From: Kibdelosporangium banguiense
Lineage (GTDB): Bacteria > Actinomycetota > Actinomycetes > Mycobacteriales > Pseudonocardiaceae
DNA length: 64,000 bases
Reading direction: 5' to 3'
NCBI RefSeq assembly: GCF_017876405.1
Contig: NZ_JAGINW010000001.1
Location: forward strand, 5,841,203-5,905,202
The position numbers were made by a program, and so were the translations under genes. Of the stretch, positions 1,460 to 27,708 are shown piece after piece (positions within the stretch are counted from its first letter, which is position 1; each line of letters opens with the position of its first letter). The notes beneath the pieces were generated by a model. The model worked only from the letters and a program-made list of their open reading frames with translations, ran no database searches and had not been told where the DNA came from.

Positions 1460-1750
1460 CTGTCGATCATGGCACAGGTGTCGAGCGGTTTTCCCCGTGT
1501 CCGGTGTGGACGGATAGTTCATTCTTTCGGTGAATGGACCGGTTTCCGGTCCTGCTGCCACGATCTGGCAGGTGTACTTGTTTCTCGCCGCGACCGGCCC
1601 CCACGGCCGGGACAGCTGTCGGTGACTGAACGATGTCCACTGTCGCATGTTGGGGGTCTTCGTTTGGACAGCGGCCGGTAGGGGAAAATTGGACCTCAGT
1701 GGACAACGACGTCCTGGCCGGCAAGCGGCCATAAGGGGAGAGTGACAGGG
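1460..1750. other. 290-nt divergent intergenic region
   Basis: No gene seen. It separates the DinB-like gene (minus) from the small plus-strand gene at 1751 and must hold both promoters. A ribosome-binding AAGGGGAG lies at its right end (about 1732-1739). I could not assign a convincing -35/-10 pair. Confidence 0.5.
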
Positions 1751-2092
1751 ATGGTTAGTCACAACGCGGTCATGCCATCGGTCTCGCTGACGCCCGGCCT
1801 GCGGCTGAGGACTGAGGTCGGCGTGGCCCTGCATGAACTGGAGCAGGGCGGCGAGGCTGTTTTGCACGTCGTACGCGACAACTTGCGTGGTGCGCTCGCG
1901 TACACCGCAGCGATCGGTGAGACCAGCATGGTCGCCCGTGGCGCCGAGGCCGTACGGCTGGCGGCCGGGCGGCTGGAGGCGGGCCTGGTGGGCCCGGCCT
2001 GTGTCGCGTTGACCGAGGCTCTGAGCTGCCTCAGTCCGGCGCTGCCGCCTGTTCCGAGGGAGCCGGCGTTCGGCCGTTCGGTCGTCGGGTGA
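1751..2092 (+). CDS. hypothetical protein, 113 aa
   Basis: I do not recognise this family. The predicted protein is mostly helical and alanine/leucine/valine-rich, without cysteine clusters, signal peptide or transmembrane segment. ATG 1751 is preferred to the in-frame GTG 1742 because the AAGGGGAG ribosome-binding site ends at about 1739, too near the GTG and about 11 nt from the ATG. Codon bias is typical of the genome (G/C-rich third positions), which supports real coding. A strong hairpin follows the stop. Confidence 0.55.
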   Translation: MVSHNAVMPSVSLTPGLRLRTEVGVALHELEQGGEAVLHVVRDNLRGALAYTAAIGETSMVARGAEAVRLAAGRLEAGLVGPACVALTEALSCLSPALPPVPREPAFGRSVVG

Positions 2093-2097
2093 TGGTC

Positions 2098-2135
2098 GCT
2101 GGTGCCCGGGCCGGTAGGGCGACCCGGGCACCAGC
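2098..2135. terminator. 13-bp stem terminator
   Basis: Perfect 13-bp inverted repeat (2098-2110 with 2123-2135) and a 12-nt loop directly after the stop at 2092. It lies between convergent ends, so it may serve both strands. Confidence 0.65.
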
Positions 2136-2138
2136 TGC

Positions 2139-2618
2139 TCAGGGGGCGATCCCGACGCCGGGGATGTCGCTGAGATTGCGCTGCTGCAACGCAGTGCGAT
2201 CCTCCGGTTTGGACTCGACGCCGGTGCATTCCTGTAGCCGGGCCCGCAGGCCGGTGCCGGTCATGGTCGAGTCCTTGCGCAGGCCCATCCACAGTGGATA
2301 CTGCGGTTCGCTCGGCCTCGGGTGATTCCCGCAGTAGTACTGGTAGATCACACGCAGGTCGACCCGGTAGTTGTAGCCGCGCGATCCGCCTGCCAGCACA
2401 CCGTTGGTCAGCAGGACACCGTCGTACCGGTACTTCTCGGCCGCCTTCGAAGCGATGTTGCCGCCCCAGGACTGGCCGTGCAGGAACGTCACCTTCGGTT
2501 TGCCGAACGTCTTGGTGAAGTGGCGACGCAGGTTCTCGGTGTCCTCGATGGCCATCTGCGTGCCGAAACCGCCACGACGGTAGGACGAACCCGCCCAGGC
2601 GTAGCCCTCGCGGACCAT
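2139..2618 (-). pseudogene. internal fragment of a secreted-type alpha/beta hydrolase
   Basis: The 159-residue frame holds the core of an alpha/beta hydrolase: YAWAGSSYRRGGF, then the nucleophile elbow GQSWGG, then VYQYYCGNHPRPSEPQYPLW. The signal peptide and N-terminal strands that should precede it are absent: the frame runs back into the YccF gene stop 20 nt upstream. The part after RNLSDI, which should carry the acid and histidine of the triad, is missing. Both ends are therefore lost and the fragment is unlikely to be active. The family is recognised from its core motifs only. Confidence 0.65.
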
Positions 2619-2637
2619 TGAGTTCGCGGCGCGGGTA

Positions 2638-3012
2638 CTACTGCGTCGGCACGATCCGCGACCCGAGCGGGACCAGCGAGATCGGGATCATCTTGAAGTT
2701 GGCCACGCCCAGCGGGATGCCGATGATGGTGATGCAGAGCAGGAACCCGGTGACGACGTGGCCGATGGCCAGCCACCAGCCGGCGAAGATGATCCAGATG
2801 ACGTTGCCGATCACCGAGGCGGCGCCGGCCTCGCGGCGCGGCTCGATGGTCCGGCCGAACGGCCAGAGCGCGTAGTTGGCGATCCGGAACGAGGCCAGGC
2901 CGAACGGGATCGTGATGATCAGGACACAGCAGATGATCCCGGCCAGCAGGTAGCCGAGGGACATCCAGAACCCGCAGAGCACGAGCCAGATCACGTTCAG
3001 CACAGTTCGCAT
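2638..3012 (-). CDS. YccF domain inner-membrane protein
   Basis: 124-aa membrane protein with two tandem YccF repeats, each a pair of hydrophobic helices (VLNVIWLVLCGFWMSLGYLL, then VIGNVIWIIFAGWWLAIGHV) followed by IPFGLASFRIANY and IPLGVANFKMI motifs. Function of the family is unknown. Start at ATG 3012 (MRTVLNVIW) matches family length; the upstream in-frame extension is basic and unrelated. Its 3' end sits 20 nt before the broken hydrolase fragment, which may once have been a separate downstream gene. Confidence 0.85.
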   Translation of the reverse strand: MRTVLNVIWLVLCGFWMSLGYLLAGIICCVLIITIPFGLASFRIANYALWPFGRTIEPRREAGAASVIGNVIWIIFAGWWLAIGHVVTGFLLCITIIGIPLGVANFKMIPISLVPLGSRIVPTQ

Positions 3013-3127
3013 GGGGCCAGTGTGGCAGAGACCCGGGCGCCGTCGTCGCCGAACTGTGATCACGGGCAACCGGTCGGCTACCCAATTGGGCACCTTTTGA
3101 CATCAGCCGCTCCGGCAGGGCTGCGCC

Positions 3128-6100
3128 ATGGTCACGACCTGCGGCAGACTCGCGGATGTGGACACATTCGTCGGACGACTGGACGAGCTCTCGATGCTCG
3201 CCGGTATCCGGGCCCGTGCCCTGGAAGGCCGACGGCAGGCGGTGGTGCTGACCGGTGAGGCCGGTGTCGGCAAGACCTGGCTGTGTGAGCGGACCTCGGT
3301 ACTGGCCGAACGCGAGGGCTTCGAAGTCGTGCGCGGCCGGTGCTGGCCGCACGGTGGCGCACCTGCGCTGTGGCCGTGGCCCGCACTGCTGCCCGCGTTG
3401 ACGGGGGAGGAGGGTGCGCGGCTGCTCGCGTCGGACGCAGGCGGTGACGTCGTCGGAGCGGAACGGTTCGCACGGTTCGCCGCGGTCGCTGATCTGCTGA
3501 TGACAAGCAGGCGGAACATCCCGACGATGATCGTGATCGACGACGTGCACTACGCGGACGCGAGCACCTTGCTGCTGACACGCTTCCTCGTGCACGCGCT
3601 GGACCGGTTGCCGTTGGTGCTGCTGCTCGCGACACGGCCAGGCGTAGGCGCAGACGAGTTGCTGACCGAGCTGCAACGTGACGCGACGACGGTGACGTTG
3701 AGGCCGTTCGGCCTCGAGGATTCGGCAGCCCTGTTGTCAGCGCACGGCTTGCGTGACGCTGACGATGAGACGGTCAAAGTGTTGCTGGACATGACCGGCG
3801 GCAACCCGTTGCACCTCGCGCAGGCAGCAAGAACCGGAACAAGCCATGTCACCGCCGAGAACGCGATCGCCGGCGCGATCGGCCGTCTCGACCCGCGCGT
3901 GCAACGCATTCTGGCGTTCGCCGCGCTGCTCGGTGTGGACGGTACGGCCGGGGAAGTCGCTGCGCTCGTGGGCACCACGCAGGCGGCTGTGGTGCAGGCA
4001 CTGACCAGTTCCGGATTGCTGCAGCAGGGCCACGACGGCCTGCGGTTCCACGACCTGGTGCGAGAAGCCGCGCTCGCCGTGTTCGACCACGCTGAGTGGC
4101 TCGACGCGCACGCTGCCGCAGCGAAGCTGCTGGCCGGGAGCACTGAGCGGGTGGCCCACCATGCATTCGCGGCGGCGCATCGCTCCCCGGCTGACGCGGA
4201 GTTCGCCATCACGGCATGCCGTAAGGCGGCTGCGTCACTACGGCGTGGTTACGCCTACGAGCAGGCCGCCGAGTTGCTCGACCGTGCGGTTGACCTTTCC
4301 GAACACGTGCACACGATGGCGTCGCGTGCGGAGTTGCTCATCGAACGGGCCGACGCGGTCCTGGCTTGCGGGCGGCTGACGGACGCGCGGGCTGCGTACG
4401 AGGTGGGCGCTGAGGCGGCGGAACTGTCAGGCAACCCGGTTCTGCTGGCCAGGGCTGTGCTCGGCCTTGGTGGCGTATGGGTGCACCAGTACCGCAACGA
4501 CACCGTGCGCAAACGCGTACTCGCACAGCAACGGGCCGCGTTACGCGCGTTGCCTGAGGAAGAGCGCGGGCTGCGTTGTCTGCTGAAAGTACGGCTCGCC
4601 GCGGAGGCGTACTACGAGGGCGGTTCTGTACAGGACGTACTCGACGCCTTGGCGGAAACCCGCGCGTCCGGCGACGAGCACGCATTGGCCGAGGCGCTTT
4701 CGTTGACACACCACGCAATGCTGGCGCCCGAGCACGCGAGCAAGCGTATGGCCCTTGCCGAGGAGCAGATCGTCGCCGCCTCCGCGGCTGGTGACGGGAT
4801 GCTCGCGCTCGTCGGACTGCTGTGGCTGACGGCAGATCGGTATCTGCTGGGCGATCCGGGCGCCGAGCGTTCGCTGACCGAGCTCAGGCAGCAGTCGGCG
4901 GCATTGGGGGTCGCGACCACCAGGTACCTCGTGACCTGTATGGACGTGATGCACCTGATCCGTGCCGGACGGCTGGCCGACGCGGAGGACGCCGCGGCGG
5001 CGTGTCTGCAGGAAGGCGTCGATGTCGGTGACGCTGACGCACCCGGGTACTACGGAGGCCAGTTGCTGTCCATCCGGTGGTTCCAGGGCCGGGTCGGGGA
5101 GCTGGCCGAGCTGGTGACGAGCACCCTGGTCTCGACGAGCCTGGCCAAGCCCGAGTACGGCTTCCGGGCCAGCGCCGTGCTGATCCTCGCCCGCGACGGC
5201 CGGTTGACCGAGGCGCGTGCGGCATTGGCGCCGTTGCTCGACATCGGCCTGGCGAACCTGCAGAGCACAAGTTCCTGGCTGACCGCGATGGTCGGCCTGA
5301 TCGAAGCGGCGGCTGTGCTCGACGACCCCGGCCTCGCCGGCGAAGCCGCCGACCTCATCCGGCCGTTCGCCGGACTGCCGGTGATGCCGTCGCTCGCCAC
5401 AAGTTGTTTCGGCGCGGCATCGCGTGCGATCGGCTTGGCAGAGCTGACCTTGGGCAACACGAACGCGGCCGTGACATACCTCGAACAGGCGGTACGGGAC
5501 AACCTGCGGCTCGGGCACCGGCCGGCCAACGCGCTGAGCCGGGCCCAGCTGGCCGAGGCCCTGATCGCCCGGGGCCGTCCAGGCGACCTCATGCGGGCCA
5601 GGGAGTTGCTGGGCGAGGCGGCCGACGACGCCCGGAAGATGGACATGAGCCAGCGCGCGGACGAGTGGCAGGCCAAGGCCGCGGACCTGGACCCAGTGGA
5701 CGCGTCGATCGTGCTGCGCCGGGAGAGCAGCGGCTGGACAGTCCAGATAGGACAGAACCGGATCGGCCTGCCGGACATGGTCGGCCTGCACTACCTCAGC
5801 CTCCTGCTCGAGCAGCCGGGCCGCGACATCCCGGCATTCGACATGTCCAGCCACGCGATCCTCGAGGCAAGACAGGACCTGCAGGACGACCCAGCCGTCG
5901 CAGCGTTCCGCACCCGATTGCGCGCCCTCGACGAGGCAATCGGCGACGCAGACCGTAATGCGGACCTGGGCACAGCAGCGCGATTGCGGCTGGAGCGAGA
6001 GTCCGTGGCCGGCGAACTGGCCGGCGCGGTAGGGCGTTTCCCCGACTCACCCGAACGCGCGAGAACCTCAGTGCGTAAGGCCCTCAAACGCGCGATCGAC

Positions 6101-21215: not shown

Positions 21216-22097
21216 GTGCGCGTGACGTTGACCGGTTCACCCTTCCCTGCGACGCTGTATGCCGAGTTGAAGGGCGGATGCCGCATGCGCCTAGCCGATC
21301 GGGTCAGCTATCTGGCACTCGAACTGACTGGCCGGTGCCAGTTGCGGTGTGTCCACTGTTACGCCGATTCCTCGCCCCTGGGCGGGCACGGAACCATGAC
21401 GGCCGACGACTGGCGGCGAGTGATCGACGGTGCCGTGCACCACGGCCTGCAGATGGTCCAGTTCATCGGCGGCGAACCGTCCTTGCATCCCTCTTTTGCC
21501 GTCCTGGTGCGGTATGCGCTCGACGCAGGCCTCCGGGTGGGCGTCTTCACGAACCTGCTCCATGTCGGGGAAAACCTGTGGCGGCTCTACGAGACGCCGG
21601 ATGTCGCACTGCAGATCTCGTACTACTCCGCGGACACGCACGATGCCGTGACCGGCCGGGCCGGCAGTCATGCGCGGACGAGGGCCAATCTGGCCGAGGC
21701 GATCAGGCGTGGCATCCCTGTGCAGGTGTGCGTCGTCGACATGGGCCAGCGGCTGGACCTGGTTCGCGCGGATCTGGAAAGCCTCGGGGCACGCGATATC
21801 AAGGTCGACCGGGAACGCAGGCTCGGCCGGAGTGATCAAGGCACATCGCCGGATGTGACGCAACTCTGTGGCCACTGCGGCGAAGGAGTCGCGATCGGTC
21901 CGGACGGCGACGTCTGGCCGTGCGTGATGGCTCGCTGGCTACCGGTCGGCAATGTCCGCCACGATCCAGTGGGGACGGTCCTGACCGGCGAGGCGATGGC
22001 GAACGCCCTGGCCGGGCTCGTGAACTCCAGTGCATCCGGCCCGCGCTGCCTGCCGATCGAAGGGGGCACCTGCACGCCGCGCACTGGCTTGTCATGA
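21216..22097 (+). CDS. radical SAM protein with SPASM-like C-terminal cysteines
   Basis: 293 aa. C41-x3-C45-x2-C48 (CQLRCVHCYA) binds the [4Fe-4S] cluster that cleaves S-adenosylmethionine; GGEPSLHP is the SAM-binding GGE motif. The C-terminal part (LCGHCGEGVAIGPDGDVWPC ... RCLPIEGGTCTP) has five or more cysteines in a SPASM-like pattern, typical of peptide-modifying enzymes. AAAGG 7 nt upstream fixes GTG 21216. No precursor peptide gene is visible in the short spacers on either side. Its stop overlaps the convergent NB-ARC gene by 6 nt. Substrate unknown; peptide maturation is an inference from the family. Confidence 0.85.
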   Translation: MRVTLTGSPFPATLYAELKGGCRMRLADRVSYLALELTGRCQLRCVHCYADSSPLGGHGTMTADDWRRVIDGAVHHGLQMVQFIGGEPSLHPSFAVLVRYALDAGLRVGVFTNLLHVGENLWRLYETPDVALQISYYSADTHDAVTGRAGSHARTRANLAEAIRRGIPVQVCVVDMGQRLDLVRADLESLGARDIKVDRERRLGRSDQGTSPDVTQLCGHCGEGVAIGPDGDVWPCVMARWLPVGNVRHDPVGTVLTGEAMANALAGLVNSSASGPRCLPIEGGTCTPRTGLS

Positions 22098-24494
22098 CTC
22101 CAGGATCTGCTCGCGCAGGCTGACTGCCTCAGGATCGGTGTAGTCAGCCAGGATCGCCGCGGCTTGACGGCGATGATCCTCGACGTCGTCGGCGTTGCCT
22201 GTCTCGGTCAGGGCGATGGTGAGATTGCCAAGAGCTTTCGCCAGAAGCCAGCGATTTCCGAGGTCACGCAGCATGGCGACGGCACGCCGGTGGAAATCGA
22301 CCGCTTCGGCCGCCCGGCCGAGCCGCCGGTACGTTTCGCCTGTGCCGTCCAGGGCTCGTGCCTCGCGTTGCGGAGCACGCAGTGCGCGGTGCAGAGTCGC
22401 GGCACGCTGATACGAGACGAGCGCCTCGTCGAACTGTCCGTCCAGTTGCTGGATCTGCCCCAGTTCGAGCAACAGCCAGCCTTCGTGCCGGGGCTCCTGC
22501 TGAGCCCGCCCGAGGTCGAGCGCCTCCTGGGCGAACCCGGTGGCTTCGGCCGTCTCACCCCGCTCGGCATGGATCCTGGCCAGGTTCATCAGGGCCACGG
22601 ATTCACTGAACCGGTCCCCGGCCTCTCTGCAGAGGACCAGACTCCGGTGTACGGTTTCGGCGGCGTCCGCCAGCCGGCCAAGGCCGAGATTCGCCTCACC
22701 GATGTTGAACAGCGCGTACGACTCCCGTTGGGAGTCCCCGAGCTCGTGCAGGATCGTCTGCGCCTGGTGCAGTGGACCGAGGGCTTCGGCGAACTGCCTG
22801 CTGACCATATGCACCACACCGAGACTGGTCAGCGCCAGGGCAGTGCCTGTCCGGTCCTCCAGTTCGGCGAACAGGGCCACGGCGCTGGTCAGCTGATCGA
22901 TGGCGTGGCCGAACCGGCTGTGGATGGAGTTGACGTTGGCCAGTGCTGCCAAGGATGCGGCTTCACCGCGTGTGTCACCGTCTCGTTGCGCGGCGTCGAG
23001 CGCCATCTCGGCCAAGGTGAGCAGGTCGCCGGAAAAGAGATGTCCGACAGCGTACGGCTGCAGCACGATGACCAGCTGCCATGCGATGCGGAACATGCCG
23101 GCCTTGCTGGCCGCGCGTGCCGCCGCGAACAGGTTGTCCTGCTCGGTCTCGCACCAGTGCACCGCGTCCTGCTGGCTGGTGAAGTCAAGCGGCGCAACGG
23201 AGTCCGTCAGCGGATCGAGCGGCACGGCTTGCTGAGCCGATTCCATCGCCGTGATCGCCGAACTCGCTGAATGCAGATACCACGTGAGCACTCTGCGCAG
23301 TACTTTGTATTGCGCGTCAAGGGATTCCTCGTGGTGTGCCTGGGCGGTGGCGTACGCGCGAAGCAGATCGTGGAACTGATAGCGATCAGGTGTGGTCTGC
23401 TCCAGCAAGTGCGCTCCGGCCAGCACGTCCAGCTGGTGGCGCGCTTCAGGGACCGTCGTCCCGGCGAGTGCGGCCGCCGCTGTCACCCCGAACTCGGGGC
23501 CTGGGTGCAGGCCGAGCAGCCGGAACATCCGCGCCGCGTTCTCCGGCAACGCCCGGTAGGACCAGGCGAACACGGTCCGGACCGCGTCGGATTCCTCGCC
23601 GTCGTCCGCCGACAGCGCGTCCCAAAGCCCGGACTCGTTGCGCAGGTCCTGGATGAGCTGGTCCAGCGGCATCCACGGCCTGCTGGCCGCCCGCTCGGCC
23701 GCGATCCGCAGGGCGAGCGGGAGCCGTGCGCACAGCCGGGCCAGTTCGGCGACCTCAGCGGGATCGTCGCCGGCCCGGTAGTCGCTCGTGATCGAGGTGA
23801 TGAGCCGGACGGCGTCGTCCTCGGCGAGGATCTCCAAGGTCACCCGGCGGCCACCGTCCAGGGCGACCAGCCCGGAGAGCCGGTTGCGGCTGGTGACGAT
23901 GACCAGGCTTTCCGCCGTGCCCGGCAAGAACGGCCGGACCTGCCGCACGGTGGCCGCGTTGTCCAGGACGACCAGGATCCGCCGCCCGGCGAGCAGTGAC
24001 CGGTAGAGCGCCGACTTGGCCTCCAGGTCTGCGGGAATGGCCGACGACGCGATGTCGAGGGCACGCAGAAACCCGTCCAGTGCCTGTTCCGGCGACACGG
24101 TCTGCCCAGGGTCGTAGCCGCGGAAGTTCAGGTACAGCTGACCATCCGGGAACTTGTCCTGCACATGATGAGCCCAGCGGACAGCCAGCGCGGTCTTGCC
24201 GACGCCTGCCGTGCCCGCGACGACCACGAGCGCGGTGACGCCCAGTTCGTTCTCGTCCTGTGGCAGCCAGGAGTCGAGCCGCGCGAGCTCGGCCGTCCGG
24301 TTGACGAATCCGCGGACGTCGCCGGGCAGTTGCCGCGGCCGCCTCGCCGGTTCACGCTCGGGGCGGTGGAAGTGCACTCCGCCGGTGACATCGCGGGCTT
24401 GCACCACGTCACCGGCGGTGCCGGACATCTCGGAACGGGTGCCGTCCTGCGGCACCGGAATCGAGTCGTCGGACCATCTGCCTGGCCGGCTCAC
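22092..24494 (-). CDS. NB-ARC/TPR STAND regulator without DNA-binding domain
   Basis: About 800 aa. A short N-terminal part carries GDVVQARDVTGGVHFH, a motif common before NB-ARC in actinobacterial STAND proteins. The NB-ARC domain has Walker A GTAGVGKTA, Walker B RILVVLDNA, VTSRNRLSGL and the GLPLAL-type LCARLPLALRIAA. A winged-helix region and about eight TPR repeats follow. No BTAD or HTH is present. GTG 24494 is chosen because GGAGGT lies 7 nt upstream; starting at ATG 24599 would overlap the previous gene. It lies 68 nt downstream of the NmrA gene on the same strand. Target unknown. Confidence 0.83.
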   Translation of the reverse strand: MSRPGRWSDDSIPVPQDGTRSEMSGTAGDVVQARDVTGGVHFHRPEREPARRPRQLPGDVRGFVNRTAELARLDSWLPQDENELGVTALVVVAGTAGVGKTALAVRWAHHVQDKFPDGQLYLNFRGYDPGQTVSPEQALDGFLRALDIASSAIPADLEAKSALYRSLLAGRRILVVLDNAATVRQVRPFLPGTAESLVIVTSRNRLSGLVALDGGRRVTLEILAEDDAVRLITSITSDYRAGDDPAEVAELARLCARLPLALRIAAERAASRPWMPLDQLIQDLRNESGLWDALSADDGEESDAVRTVFAWSYRALPENAARMFRLLGLHPGPEFGVTAAAALAGTTVPEARHQLDVLAGAHLLEQTTPDRYQFHDLLRAYATAQAHHEESLDAQYKVLRRVLTWYLHSASSAITAMESAQQAVPLDPLTDSVAPLDFTSQQDAVHWCETEQDNLFAAARAASKAGMFRIAWQLVIVLQPYAVGHLFSGDLLTLAEMALDAAQRDGDTRGEAASLAALANVNSIHSRFGHAIDQLTSAVALFAELEDRTGTALALTSLGVVHMVSRQFAEALGPLHQAQTILHELGDSQRESYALFNIGEANLGLGRLADAAETVHRSLVLCREAGDRFSESVALMNLARIHAERGETAEATGFAQEALDLGRAQQEPRHEGWLLLELGQIQQLDGQFDEALVSYQRAATLHRALRAPQREARALDGTGETYRRLGRAAEAVDFHRRAVAMLRDLGNRWLLAKALGNLTIALTETGNADDVEDHRRQAAAILADYTDPEAVSLREQILES

Positions 24495-24562
24495 CGTGCC
24501 CACCTCCGAAGTCCGAGACCCCAGGGCCACGGTACCGGCTGCGACCGCAGGCACGGTCGATG

Positions 24563-25402
24563 TCACCCGGCCAATGCCGCCCGATGGTCCTCTGCCCATG
24601 TCGCGAAGCCGGTCGGTGCCCGGCCGAGGACCTTGGCGACGTCGCCGGTCACGATCGCGTAGTCACCGGCGATGGCCTGGCGCATCCCGATCAGCGACAT
24701 CTCCACCGCGGCCGGGTCCATGCCGTTGCCGATCATCATGTCGCGGACGGTGTCCAGCGGGACGTCCACCGACCTGACCGGCCGGCCCAGGACTCGCTCC
24801 AGGATTCGGATCTGCTCGCCGAACGTGAGCAGCTCGGGGCCGGTCAGGGTATAGCTCTGTCCGATGTGGTCTTCTGTGGTCAGCGCCTTGACAGCGACCG
24901 CGGCCACGTCACGCGGGTCGATCACACCGAGTGCGCCGGGCCCGTTCCAGTCGGGGACCGGTTCGCCTGCTCTGATCATATCCGCGAACTGCAACAGGTT
25001 CGAGGCGAAGCTGGACGGTTTGAGGATCGTCCAATCCAGGCCGCTCGCCCGTACGACCTGCTCGGTCAGCAGGTGCCAGGACGAATCGGCCTGGACACCC
25101 GCGGCCGTGATCGCCGACAACTTCACGATTCGTTGCACGCCAGCGCCTTCGGCGGCTTCGACGAAGGCCACATCGTGGTCCGCGATCGGCTTCTGCGGCG
25201 TGGTGACCAGGAACGCGGCCCGCACCCCGGCCAGCGCCCTGGTCAGGGAAGCGGGGTCTTCGAAGTCACCCTGGACGACCTCGGCGGTCGTTCGCAGCTT
25301 GGCGGGGTTGCGGGCCATGACGCGTACCGGCGCACCTGCGCCGGTCAGCTGGGACAGGACGTGGGTTCCGATGTTTCCGGTGGCCCCGGTGATCAGGATC
25401 AT
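24563..25402 (-). CDS. NmrA/SDR-like NAD(P)-binding protein
   Basis: 279 aa, atypical short-chain dehydrogenase of the NmrA/QorB type. The Rossmann motif is GATGNIG (6-12), followed by VRVMARNPAKL for NADP recognition and the ITAAGV...SWHLLTEQVVRASGLDWTILKPSSF segment, which has no catalytic Tyr-x3-Lys. Such proteins sense redox cofactors or act as quinone or flavone reductases. It is divergent from an AraC-type regulator across 75 nt, the usual layout of a regulator and its target. Confidence 0.85.
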   Translation of the reverse strand: MILITGATGNIGTHVLSQLTGAGAPVRVMARNPAKLRTTAEVVQGDFEDPASLTRALAGVRAAFLVTTPQKPIADHDVAFVEAAEGAGVQRIVKLSAITAAGVQADSSWHLLTEQVVRASGLDWTILKPSSFASNLLQFADMIRAGEPVPDWNGPGALGVIDPRDVAAVAVKALTTEDHIGQSYTLTGPELLTFGEQIRILERVLGRPVRSVDVPLDTVRDMMIGNGMDPAAVEMSLIGMRQAIAGDYAIVTGDVAKVLGRAPTGFATWAEDHRAALAG

Positions 25403-25477: not shown

Positions 25478-26224
25478 GTGCTGGAGGAACGTGCCGTCGA
25501 AGTCTCTGCCGGGCTACGGCCCTGGGTGGACGAGATGCTCGTCGCGTCCATGACGGGCGAGCAGATGGTGCTCGACGCGCCGGACGCCGCGACCACGCTT
25601 GTCCTGCGGTCGGTTCCCGGACGGCGACCGGAGCTTGTGGTGATGGGGCCGCGGACACAGGCGCTGTACTACCTTGGCCGGCAAGGGCCGTCGTGTGTGA
25701 AGGTCCGGCTCCGGCCCGGGCGGGCCCGGTTGTTGCTCGGCCGCTCGGCCCGTGATCTCGTGGACCAGGTTGTCCCGCTCGGCGACCTCTGGGGTGAGCC
25801 CGGCCAACTGCTTGCTCGGCACTGGGCGGACCCGGTACGGTTCGCCGAAGCGTTGGTGGCCGGTAGGTCGGGCGGGCCGGCTGACCTGTCCAACAGCGAG
25901 CTGGTCGGCGAAGCCGCCCGGCTGCTGTCCACAAACGACATCAGGGACAGTGCGAAACGCTTGCACGTCAGCGAACGGCACCTGCGCAACCTCTTCACCG
26001 AAGGTGTCGGCATGCCACCGAAACGGTTCGCCCGGATCAACCGGGTCCGGACCGTGCTGGCCCACGCGCACACCCGGCCGTGGTCGGAACTCGCCCTCGA
26101 AGCCGGCTACTACGACCATTCGCACATGACCGCCGAATTCCGCCGCATTATGGGGGTACCACCCAGTGCGTTCCTCAGGGGCGAGCTGCCGGCGGCCAGG
26201 CAATGTGGTCCCTTGGAATATTGA
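25478..26224 (+). CDS. AraC family transcriptional regulator
   Basis: 248 aa. The N-terminal half is a ligand domain of the DUF6597/AraC type (TTLVLRSVPGRRPELVVMGPRT ... VKVRLRPGRARLLLG). The C-terminal 100 residues hold two helix-turn-helices: IRDSAKRLHVSERHLRNLFTE and WSELALEAGYYDHSHMTAEFRR, ending GVPPSAFLRG. GTG start at 25478. It probably controls the divergent NmrA gene. A promoter for the next transcript begins directly after its stop. Confidence 0.92.
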   Translation: MLEERAVEVSAGLRPWVDEMLVASMTGEQMVLDAPDAATTLVLRSVPGRRPELVVMGPRTQALYYLGRQGPSCVKVRLRPGRARLLLGRSARDLVDQVVPLGDLWGEPGQLLARHWADPVRFAEALVAGRSGGPADLSNSELVGEAARLLSTNDIRDSAKRLHVSERHLRNLFTEGVGMPPKRFARINRVRTVLAHAHTRPWSELALEAGYYDHSHMTAEFRRIMGVPPSAFLRGELPAARQCGPLEY

Positions 26225-26253
26225 TTGACGTGCCCAGTGGCTTCGGTCATGAT
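26225..26253 (+). promoter_or_regulatory. sigma70-like promoter of the leader ORF / tRNA block
   Basis: TTGACG at 26225-26230, a 17-nt spacer and CATGAT at 26248-26253 (5/6 and 4/6 matches to the housekeeping consensus). It begins immediately after the AraC stop and points toward the 35-codon ORF at 26284. Confidence 0.6.
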
Positions 26254-26283
26254 TCCACTGTCACACCGAGTTGAGGAGTCAAG

Positions 26284-26391
26284 ATGAGTAGCTGGAAGCG
26301 AGGGACGCGGCCGAGTGGCAGCGTGATCGCTCCCGGTTGCTTGCCCAACGGCTCCTGGCGTGGCCAGGGGTGCAGCGGTTCCCCGCCCTGA
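26284..26391 (+). CDS. small ORF, 35 aa, possible leader peptide
   Basis: ATG 26284 is preceded by GAGGAG at 26273-26278, an ideal ribosome-binding site, and by a good promoter. The peptide starts MSSWKRGTRPSGSVIAP and ends CSGSPP. It is rich in Ser (7) and Gly (7), with two Trp and one Leu encoded by TTG. Its stop lies inside a perfect hairpin and a strong terminator follows, before a group of tRNA genes for Trp, Gly, Leu (TTG) and Ser (AGC/AGT). This arrangement resembles a translated leader that could control readthrough, which is inference. I do not recognise the peptide. Confidence 0.5.
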   Translation: MSSWKRGTRPSGSVIAPGCLPNGSWRGQGCSGSPP

Positions 26392-26408
26392 CAAGGCATT
26401 CTTGTCAG
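26388..26408 (+). other. hairpin overlapping the small ORF stop codon
   Basis: Perfect 8-bp stem CTGACAAG / CTTGTCAG with a 5-nt loop GCATT. The TGA stop of the small ORF is in the left arm, so a ribosome that terminates there would block the stem. It lies 11 nt before the terminator. Confidence 0.7.
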
Positions 26409-26418
26409 CCGCACGGGA

Positions 26419-26455
26419 GCCGCCCATCGGGGAACCGATCCGGGCGGCTTTTGTT
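26419..26455 (+). terminator. strong intrinsic terminator with T-tract
   Basis: Stem GCCGCCC / GGGCGGC extended by an inner ATCGG / CCGAT stem with a GGAA tetraloop, followed by TTTTGTTTT. This is the clearest classical rho-independent terminator in the window. It separates the small ORF from the tRNA genes. Confidence 0.9.
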
Positions 26456-26478
26456 TTCACGCATTTCTTTGATGACAG

Positions 26479-26548
26479 ATCGGCGAGCTGTCGGCAGCGG
26501 AGCGGATTCCAAACCCGCGTCCAGGGGGTTCGAATCCTCCCGCCGGTG
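26479..26548 (+). tRNA. tRNA-Trp(CCA)-like, degenerate D arm
   Basis: Acceptor ATCGGCG pairs with CGCCGGT over 7 bp (one T-G). The T arm GGGGG-TTCGAAT-CCTCC is good. The anticodon loop TTCCAAA reads CCA in a stem GCGGA/CCCGC with a mismatch at the last pair. Only 70 nt long: the D arm is cramped and has no standard 4-bp stem. No encoded CCA end. It may be a decayed or accessory tRNA. Confidence 0.6.
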
Positions 26549-26563
26549 CGGTTTGTATTCAAT

Positions 26564-26636
26564 GCGGTCGTGGTGAACTCGGCGGACACGTCAGGCTTCC
26601 ACCCTGAAGAAGAGGGTTCGATGCCCTCCGGCCGTT
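26564..26636 (+). tRNA. tRNA-Gly(TCC)
   Basis: 73 nt. Acceptor GCGGTCG/CGGCCGT (two wobble pairs), D stem GTG/CAC, anticodon stem TCAGG/CCTGA with loop CTTCCAC (anticodon TCC), T arm GAGGG-TTCGATG-CCCTC fully paired. No encoded CCA. Confidence 0.8.
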
Positions 26637-26653
26637 CTGCAACTGAAGGCAAG

Positions 26654-26737
26654 GCCCCTGTGGCGGAAGTGGCAGACGCGAACGACTCAAACTCGTTTGC
26701 CCGCAAGGGCGTGCAGGTTCGACTCCTGCCAGGGGCA
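26654..26737 (+). tRNA. tRNA-Leu(CAA)
   Basis: 84-nt class II tRNA. Acceptor GCCCCTG/CAGGGGC with A at position 73, anticodon stem AACGA/TCGTT with loop CTCAAAC (anticodon CAA, reads TTG), long variable arm TGCCC-GCAA-GGGCG, T arm GCAGG-TTCGACT-CCTGC. No encoded CCA. Confidence 0.88.
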
Positions 26738-26748
26738 CGGGTACACGA

Positions 26749-26834
26749 GGAGGACTGGCCGAGCGGTAAGGCACCGGATTGCTAATCCGTGGTCCGGGTG
26801 ACACCCGGCGCGCGTTCGATCCGCGCGTCCTCCG
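26749..26834 (+). tRNA. tRNA-Ser(GCT)
   Basis: 86-nt class II tRNA. Acceptor GGAGGAC/GTCCTCC with G at position 73, anticodon loop TTGCTAA (anticodon GCT, reads AGC/AGT), long variable arm CCGGGT/ACCCGG, T arm GCGCG-TTCGATC-CGCGC. It starts 11 nt after tRNA-Leu. No encoded CCA. Confidence 0.88.
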
Positions 26835-27081
26835 CACGACCTGACCGCCTGGGCGGACGGCGACTTGTCTGTTGTGGACACTGACCGGCCTGCGGGACGC
26901 CCGGACGAAGGTCAGCTCGTCGGATCATTGACCTGCATACCTTCCCAGATGCCAGTTGCAGCCGGGGGAAAGTGCTTGCCGAGCAATGTATTGCTCCATC
27001 CGTAGGCTTCCGAGATCCGGTGACAGGGCTACCCTGCGTGCAGGGCCCGCTACTGGATGGTTGTCTTCGAAAGGTGCCTCA

Positions 27082-27708
27082 ATGCTCAGTTCAGTACTTG
27101 CCGTTGTCATGGCTTTATGTGCCAACGCGCCTACGGTGGCGGCTGTGGACGAGGCCCCGGTCGGGCGGGTCACCGTCGATATCGTCTCGGCCAACGGCTC
27201 CGGATGTCCGGTCGGCACAACGGAAGTCGCGGTCGCCAGCGACAACTCCGAGTTCACACTGGTCCACCGCAACTACGTGGCCCGGGTGGGCGTCGGCGCC
27301 GGGGCGACCGACTTCCGCAAGAACTGCCAGATAACTGTGAATGTGAAAGTCCCGTCCGGGTACACCTGGGGGATCGTGCGCGCCGAGTACCGCGGCCGGA
27401 TCAGTCTGCAGGCCGGGGCGCAGGCCTGGCAGGGCGCGAACTACTACTTCCAGGGTGATTCCACCACGGTCAAGGAGATCCACCCGTTCCAGGGCCCGCT
27501 GCGCGACGACTGGGTGACCACGGACTCCGTGGACCCGGGTTCGGTCGTCTACGCCCCCTGCGACGATCAGCGCTATCTGAACATCAACACCCACCTGCGG
27601 GTCAGCGCGGGCACATCCAACCCGCAGACCACCTCCAGCTGGATCTCGATGGACTCCCCGGACCGCAACCCCAACAGCCGCTACCGGTTCGCCTGGAAGC
27701 GCTGCTGA
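27082..27708 (+). CDS. secreted DUF4360 protein
   Basis: 208 aa with a Sec signal (MLSSVLAVVMALCANAPTVAA). The mature part shows the DUF4360 pattern: VDIVSANGSGCPVGTTEVAVASDNSEFTL-type opening with a GSGCP motif, a conserved DFRKNCQ, and the paired-sheet region YRGRISLQAGAQA...YYFQG. Family members are small extracellular beta proteins of unknown role, common in actinomycetes and fungi. ATG 27082 has GAAAGG 7 nt upstream. A 14-bp hairpin terminates it. Confidence 0.82.
   Translation: MLSSVLAVVMALCANAPTVAAVDEAPVGRVTVDIVSANGSGCPVGTTEVAVASDNSEFTLVHRNYVARVGVGAGATDFRKNCQITVNVKVPSGYTWGIVRAEYRGRISLQAGAQAWQGANYYFQGDSTTVKEIHPFQGPLRDDWVTTDSVDPGSVVYAPCDDQRYLNINTHLRVSAGTSNPQTTSSWISMDSPDRNPNSRYRFAWKRC

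Follow-up and report, generated by a model that had tools for sequence, protein, structure and literature searches.

T-box riboswitches sense tRNA to control termination, and they do so by binding uncharged tRNA directly, without a leader peptide. The locus described here, from the actinobacterium Kibdelosporangium banguiense (Pseudonocardiaceae), resembles them in that it may sense tRNA at the level of termination, but only this locus has a leader peptide. Positions are given for the window, i.e. the whole stretch of 64,000 nucleotides that was analysed (forward strand of contig NZ_JAGINW010000001.1). A cmscan of 26225-26480 with 4227 Rfam families at E<=1 returned no match, the T-box covariance model included, for which reason I reject a T-box identity of the leader. 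Leader-peptide attenuators, as in the trp/his/leu type and in actinobacterial trpE, trpS, leuS, alaS and thrS, share with the window locus a short open reading frame, control codons and competing hairpins; in Streptomyces lividans they stand before amino-acid and tRNA-ligase genes, according to the sections covered of that account (PMC8079986). The window locus differs from these classical cases in that tRNA genes rather than enzymes lie downstream, that a single leader has codons for several tRNAs together, and that, as proposed below, the stall would be relieved by the very tRNAs that are made.

Redundant sets of tRNA genes are also on record. The covered sections of one report describe the Anabaena trn operon as a set of redundant tRNAs that stays silent during normal growth and is switched on under translational stress, with the repressor TrcR acting at its promoter (PMC10272220), whereas in the window an RNA switch is proposed to read the tRNAs themselves; the main text of that report has no words starting with leader or attenuat. 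Mycobacterial tRNA array units are dense, redundant tRNA genes unlike the chromosomal copies, for which the sections covered propose an antidefence role (PMC12803027). They are defined, in the covered part of the source, by at least 20 tRNAs and at least 2 per kb (PMC5966550), a definition that the four tRNAs of the window fall short of. The covered sections of both mycobacterial accounts describe no leader (PMC5966550, PMC12803027), and the main text of the former has no words starting with promoter, leader, attenuat or terminator. The RNA repair operon rtcBA of Salmonella, as far as the covered sections go, responds to damaged tRNA through an activator protein that binds tRNA fragments (PMC7790460); its expression is likewise tied to the state of tRNA, the difference being an activator protein there and an RNA leader in the window. 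Phage tRNAs, finally, are proposed in the covered part of another paper to evade the anticodon nucleases of the host (PMC10264068). Full-text literature searches of openly licensed papers, judged from their listings, yielded no attenuator of tRNA genes that works via a translated leader, and what appears new here is the target, tRNA genes, and the input, several tRNAs at once.

The locus (26225-26835, all features on the forward strand) consists of a promoter-like site, a ribosome binding site, a 35-codon open reading frame, a switchable pair of hairpins and genes for tRNA-Trp, Gly, Leu and Ser. The promoter-like site, TTGACG (26225-26230) and CATGAT (26248-26253) with 17 nt between them, was found by sequence scan and is the sole such match on both strands of the 1.8 kb from 25600 to 27400, where shuffled sequences gave 0.1 on average. 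The ribosome binding site GAGGAG (26273-26278) precedes the leader frame (26284-26391, stop codon TGA at 26389-26391), which encodes MSSWKRGTRPSGSVIAPGCLPNGSWRGQGCSGSPP and is supported, besides the reading of the frame itself, by the match between codons and arrays across 138 leaders. The four tRNAs encoded behind it could decode ten of its 30 body codons. The promoter, the GAGGAG and the 35-codon frame had been claimed by the first-pass annotation, and its codon tally proves exact: two TGG, TTG as the sole Leu codon, AGC or AGT for five of seven Ser and GGG for two of seven Gly. That annotation also named a tRNA promoter of its own past 26455 as a finding that would speak against regulation by the leader; no promoter-like site was found there, though a promoter of another type may exist.

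Behind the terminator, the tRNA-Trp(CCA) gene (26479-26548) begins about 21 nt after the U tract. It is divergent with a very short D arm, and it is called by neither ARAGORN nor Rfam; its identity, as annotated earlier, is backed by alignment with seven homologues, and its boundaries were set by eye. Six of the homologues ARAGORN calls as Trp(CCA), and the seventh, in locus L004, is likewise uncalled. ARAGORN and Rfam agree with the earlier annotation on tRNA-Gly(TCC) at 26564-26637, tRNA-Leu(CAA) at 26654-26738 and tRNA-Ser(GCT) at 26749-26835. The neighbouring genes encode an NB-ARC/TPR regulator (22095-24599), an NmrA-like protein (24566-25402), an AraC-type regulator (25478-26221) and a DUF4360 protein (27082-27705).

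The element recurs. BLAST of 26225-26560 against 60 genomes gave matches in 13, the own genome and 12 others. A second locus of the own genome (3,632,939) repeats all 37 bases of 26415-26451, in the terminator region, and stands before another tRNA array (Glu, Leu, Gln, Ser, Lys, Arg, Cys), with its own promoter-like site, ribosome binding site and leader MITKRSSERQLERSVVLLSCLSSQLEQAP. From 19 loci a covariance model, R1, was built on the 85 nt that hold the hairpins, with the tRNA excluded, and at E<=0.01 it matches 183 of 390 genomes of the family, spanning 25 of 46 genera, a count by E-value alone that includes the weakest matches. Named hits fall in Amycolatopsis, Allokutzneria, Lentzea and Pseudonocardia, in keeping with the place of the window in the Pseudonocardiaceae. 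For further analysis I took 144 distinct elements, the best-scoring among the matches listed plus those of the own genome. In 140 of these 144 the element is followed by a tRNA gene that ARAGORN calls on the same strand; the gap is at most 300 nt in 134 and at most 35 nt in 66 of the 140, with a median of 52 nt. The four elements left are L131, where a tRNA gene with an insertion was recognised by eye directly behind the leader, L133, and L017 and L062, where inspection by eye recognised nothing downstream. In the own genome R1 has five matches with E<1e-7 and a sixth at E 0.64. Three of the five strong ones directly precede tRNA genes taken whole by ARAGORN or Rfam, one (2,034,850) is immediately followed by a partial Rfam tRNA match, and one (8,856,227) by a tRNA-Tyr that is truncated as judged by eye, with a tRNA-Gln further on. 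All five adjoin tRNA genes or remnants of such genes, the remnants being recognised by eye. A motif similar to the promoter, starting some 59 nt ahead of the start codon, is present in 108 of the 144 leaders; mononucleotide shuffles reach 2.6 on average and 8 at most.

Conservation of the leader frame, which the first-pass annotation had proposed as a check, thus holds in part: the frame, the position of its stop codon and the logic of its codons recur, but the peptide has no convincing homologue in the 60 genomes. The best match of a peptide search outside the own locus has E 0.004, and 59 of the 60 genomes have something at E<=1, so that I reject peptide sequence conservation as the signal.

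What varies among the leaders follows the tRNA genes behind them. Leader MTNTRRRRSGSPCSPP precedes a single tRNA-Arg(ACG), MTNTRRCCSRSQGSPP precedes tRNAs for Arg and Cys, and MKSKLECQSAKLELSLELDRLLV precedes those for Glu, Leu, Leu, Gln, Ser, Lys and Cys. Codon tests were done on 138 of the 144 elements, leaving out the four with no ARAGORN tRNA as well as L185 and L186, in which the first ARAGORN tRNA is more than 700 nt away. Leader frames were picked by start and Shine-Dalgarno score among the frames ending near the element (those of L132, L142, L153 and L165 are dubious and were retained), codon shares were counted over the body codons with the antiterminator arm excluded, and arrays were delimited by gaps of more than 700 nt or by the ends of the locus. 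The tRNA-Trp of the window, missed by ARAGORN, was added by hand; since divergent tRNAs in other arrays are missed as well, the match is blurred. The share of codons readable by the own array is 0.299, compared to 0.160 when arrays are permuted. In 75 representatives from a clustering of similar peptides, which may share a distant kinship controlled only by the paired contrasts below, it is 0.268 vs. 0.148 (sd 0.008, z 14.5), a value reached in 0 of 2000 permutations. The effect is confined to the translated frame, with z 15.4 among the representatives, compared to 1.1 and -0.2 in the other two frames and 0.6 in the 90 nt upstream.

Amino acid by amino acid, 19 of the 20 are testable, His being left out with one array only, and 17 are enriched where the array has a matching tRNA (p < 0.02 for each, without correction for multiple testing); no enrichment is seen for Asn and Thr. 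Similar leaders in front of different arrays were matched into 36 disjoint pairs, whose contrasts are in favour in 62 cases, against in 16 and equal in 26 (p 7.6e-8). An anticodon of the array has a codon in the own leader in 91.3% of cases vs. 61.2% under permutation. Taken singly, the window leader is fitted equally well by 9 of 137 other arrays, while the window array finds an equally good fit in 0 of 137 other leaders. As far as can be judged from these comparisons, codons in the leader and tRNAs in the array mostly change together.

The candidate switch lies at the end of the leader frame. The annotated hairpin around the stop codon is present (26388-26408, arms CTGACAAG/CTTGTCAG), is supported by folding and covariation, and fits both states described here; it turns out to be nested in a larger antiterminator. 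The outer arms of the latter, found by folding, are GGTTCCC within the end of the frame (26377-26383; usually GGCTCCC in other leaders), also supported by covariation analysis, and GGGAGCC (26415-26421). The intrinsic terminator (26418-26457), predicted earlier and supported by sequence, folding and covariation, reads AGCCGCCC-ATCGG...CCGAT-CC-GGGCGGCT followed by TTTGTTTT. A simple scanner limited to ungapped stems did not report it, probably because a two-base bulge interrupts the stem, but it is present in free folds of the leader RNA, which folds better than 200 of 200 shuffled sequences (z -4.15). Because the AGCC of GGGAGCC doubles as the 5' foot of the terminator, antiterminator and terminator are predicted to exclude each other.

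The same alternative is predicted for most elements. When the RNA ends before the 3' side of the terminator, 133 of the 138 elements that could be evaluated pair their outer arms over 5 or more of the 7 nt (144 were given, of which 6 were unparsed). With the full RNA, covering the 5' arm in the way a ribosome at the stop codon would lets the terminator form in 136 of 137; with the terminator foot withheld, the antiterminator forms in 132 of 137. The energy of the antiterminator minus that of the covered-arm terminator state averages -1.2 kcal/mol (sd 3.3, with extremes of -12.7 and 7.7), the window values being -39.5 and -40.1 kcal/mol, respectively. With nothing covered, the terminator is the lowest-energy fold of the whole RNA in 112 of 137, and the antiterminator exceeds the free minimum by a mean of 2.8 kcal/mol (by no more than 3 in 80 of 137; by 6.1 in the window). 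Since the antiterminator thus sits above the free minimum and the terminator is favoured without a ribosome, antitermination must be kinetic, and read-through would require that the antiterminator forms first and lasts while the polymerase passes. Covariation amounts to 84 two-sided changes in antiterminator plus inner hairpin, vs. 20 in shuffled alignments, and to 108 in inner hairpin plus terminator, vs. 25. The outer antiterminator stem varies mostly by one-sided changes from C-G to U-G, with a two-sided change in three of its seven pairs, in one sequence each. In L041, a locus of the own genome, the stop codon lies inside the hairpin arm, and this arm remains paired in the covered-arm fold.

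Sequence and folding together thus present the marks of an attenuator, i.e. a leader frame with ribosome binding site and promoter, control codons related to the genes behind it, and two mutually exclusive structures. The position of the element, the match of codons and arrays, the frame control and the exclusive folds argue for what had been suggested for this locus from its letters, a tRNA-sensing attenuator that acts on its own tRNAs. I consider it very probable that a ribosome-mediated transcription attenuator ties spare tRNA genes to the supply of the same tRNAs. Comparison and folding support its predicted parts, the match between codons and tRNAs, and two exclusive structures, all of which recur, whereas I infer the start site, translation, stalling, read-through and purpose, as follows. 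Transcription would start near 26260 and a ribosome would enter the 35-codon leader. With charged tRNAs for Trp, Gly, Leu (UUG) and Ser (AGY) in ample supply, the ribosome would reach the stop codon and cover GGTTCCC, so that the terminator forms and transcription stops ahead of the tRNA genes. If one cognate tRNA were scarce, the ribosome would stall further upstream, and GGTTCCC would pair with GGGAGCC once both are transcribed; this pairing would block the foot of the terminator, and the polymerase could proceed into tRNA-Trp, Gly, Leu and Ser, which would restore the supply.

A plausible purpose is rescue of the cell from depletion of, or damage to, its housekeeping tRNAs, and I favour it over steady tuning because every tRNA of the window array has a further copy elsewhere in the genome. 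ARAGORN finds 68 tRNAs in the stretches of the own genome that were taken, and for each of Gly-TCC, Leu-CAA, Ser-GCT and Trp-CCA there are one or more additional genes; the window set is therefore redundant with copies elsewhere, as in the Anabaena trn operon. Alternatively, the switch may continuously tune tRNA dose to codon demand, without any emergency. Several loci that consist of a single tRNA-Arg(ACG) behind a leader with an Arg run (e.g. L123, L125 and L141) would suit such homeostasis, which I nevertheless regard as rather unlikely, as the window tRNAs repeat anticodons found elsewhere in the genome. Moreover, the twelve tRNA matches of the three multi-tRNA leader loci score 39-63 bits and rank 32 to 66 among the 68, which resembles a diverged reserve set, although long-armed tRNAs score low anyway. 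Five operons with a gene that resembles an RNA-repair HAD family also speak against pure tuning. The gene in L041 matches Pfam HAD_SAK_2 (PF18143, Swiss Army Knife RNA repair), and similar genes are present in five array loci, with only the L041 protein scanned. In fourteen loci a gene stands behind the last tRNA, six intact complete copies measuring 700-725 codons and a seventh (L131) 461. The two copies that were scanned show similarity to the SCO0854/MXAN_6230 family (NF041916), with scores under its cut-off. The HAD_SAK_2-like and NF041916-like genes are compatible with a link to RNA damage, a fit that proves nothing. The survey of open reading frames in arrays, swamped by spurious frames running through tRNAs, was used only for these gene families and for the inserted element mentioned below.

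The input may also be the amino acid rather than the tRNA, i.e. the leader could sense charging as at the trp and leu operons, the tRNA genes having joined an amino-acid starvation regulon. The enrichment of codons is strongest at the level of the amino acid, and leader attenuators before trpS, leuS, alaS and thrS in S. lividans, in the covered sections of that paper, offer a precedent (PMC8079986). Among the representatives, codon choice does not follow the anticodon for Leu GAG, Leu CAG, Arg CCG, Gln CTG, Glu CTC, Gly TCC and Ser CGA, so that a number of leaders may respond to all tRNAs of an amino acid rather than to one tRNA. However, overall the choice among synonymous codons does track the anticodon (z 2.7 or 4.2 in the representatives, depending on the donor set), most clearly for Arg, Gln(TTG) and Leu(CAA), and also for Val and Lys. 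The share of CAA among Gln codons is 0.41 with a TTG tRNA in the array and 0.04 without, and that of TTG among Leu codons is 0.24 with a CAA tRNA and 0.05 without. Sensing of isoacceptors is thus supported in part by codon usage. Many leaders, in addition, combine codons for several unrelated amino acids, matching their array, and a lack of amino acid is not remedied by extra tRNA, so that I hold control by starvation to be improbable. That leader and terminator are leftovers of an upstream transcript, with a codon match due to chance or composition, is hardly credible: the leader peptides do lack sequence conservation and the window leader alone is indecisive, given the nine other arrays that fit it, but the frame control contradicts this reading, the permutations and paired contrasts speak against it, as do the 140 of 144 elements (best-scoring listed and own genome) that precede tRNA genes, and chance was rejected on the frame and permutation controls.

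Some arrays hold further peculiarities. A reverse-transcriptase element, group II intron-like by reading, lies in or beside the tRNA genes of L041, L185 and L186, with one protein family across the three; in L041 it occupies 1745-3640, corresponding to about 3,633,245-3,635,140 in the own genome. L186 (own genome, near 8,856,200) has a tRNA-Tyr-like sequence behind a Gln-rich leader that, by eye, is apparently truncated by an insertion. The tRNA of L131 (genome G100) has its insertion in the anticodon region, which by eye could be an intron. All array Leu-GAG (28 of 28) and Leu-CAG genes (35 of 35) fall in the bins of 70-79 nt, and the 13 array Leu-CAA genes in those of 80-89 nt; Leu genes of the own genome at 546,890, 1,341,473, 3,633,089 and 5,081,310 all measure 75 nt. 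The Leu-GAG and Leu-CAG genes thus leave no room for the long variable arm that a tRNA-Leu should have. Odd tRNA-like genes with similar bodies occur in the own genome at 8,075,431-8,081,268 (L042), 5,314,170, 10,030,004 and 12,255,890; for two of them ARAGORN does not settle the anticodon, and no R1 match lies beside the odd genes. In L133 (genome G208) an R1 leader, MPGKAMHQARSRTRAFVCDELCPLCALANPGSPP, is immediately followed by an HNH nuclease gene, and no tRNA was found; the same HNH family occurs after tRNA-Cys in L149 and L150 and within the array of L110.

Outside the family, R1 was run against 394 genomes of the class and matched 12, two of them within the family. Among the other ten, L085 and L090 precede tRNA arrays; the match in L089 is itself the terminator behind a single tRNA-Ser, and seven were taken as chance, ARAGORN finding no tRNA at these loci. 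Following up L085 and L090, which are weak matches from a different family of that class, brought out a second group of loci. Its six resolved leaders have a high content of Ala, Pro, Gly and Leu and stand ahead of arrays for Ala, Pro, Gly, Gln and Leu; the Ala, Pro and Gly content comes in part from an end of the reading frame that the leaders have in common, and L213, L214 and L218 lie outside the six. The four leaders with a tRNA-Gln have a Gln codon, while L209 and L212, whose visible arrays lack tRNA-Gln, have none. L211 has Pro codons and no called tRNA-Pro. In a third family, L010 has an array of 14 tRNAs, and the stop codon of its leader lies in a hairpin flanked by GGCGGC/GCCGCC that would compete with a terminator. 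BLAST of the L010 leader and the first part of its array against 150 genomes of its order recovered no locus other than L010, and the array matched 4 plasmid and 211 phage records with, among the matches listed, 3-5% query cover, about one tRNA. These cases were read by eye, with no statistics. As the same logic appears with a different sequence in two other families, the mechanism seems to be older than the sequence captured by R1, or to extend beyond it.

I give about even credence to a broader interpretation, in which actinobacterial reserve tRNA operons are emergency kits. The leader would be a multi-input sensor, such that a shortage of any one encoded tRNA turns on the whole kit, some kits including RNA-repair genes, and array and leader would co-evolve codon by codon; the kits would confer immunity against tRNA-cutting toxins and phage-defence nucleases. 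The attenuator would tell when redundant bacterial tRNA sets come into use, and it makes the idea of tRNA rescue directly testable. The leaders of the family form a natural library of possible sensors for the depletion of many different tRNAs and, if the interpretation is true, each leader reads out which tRNAs its kit carries.
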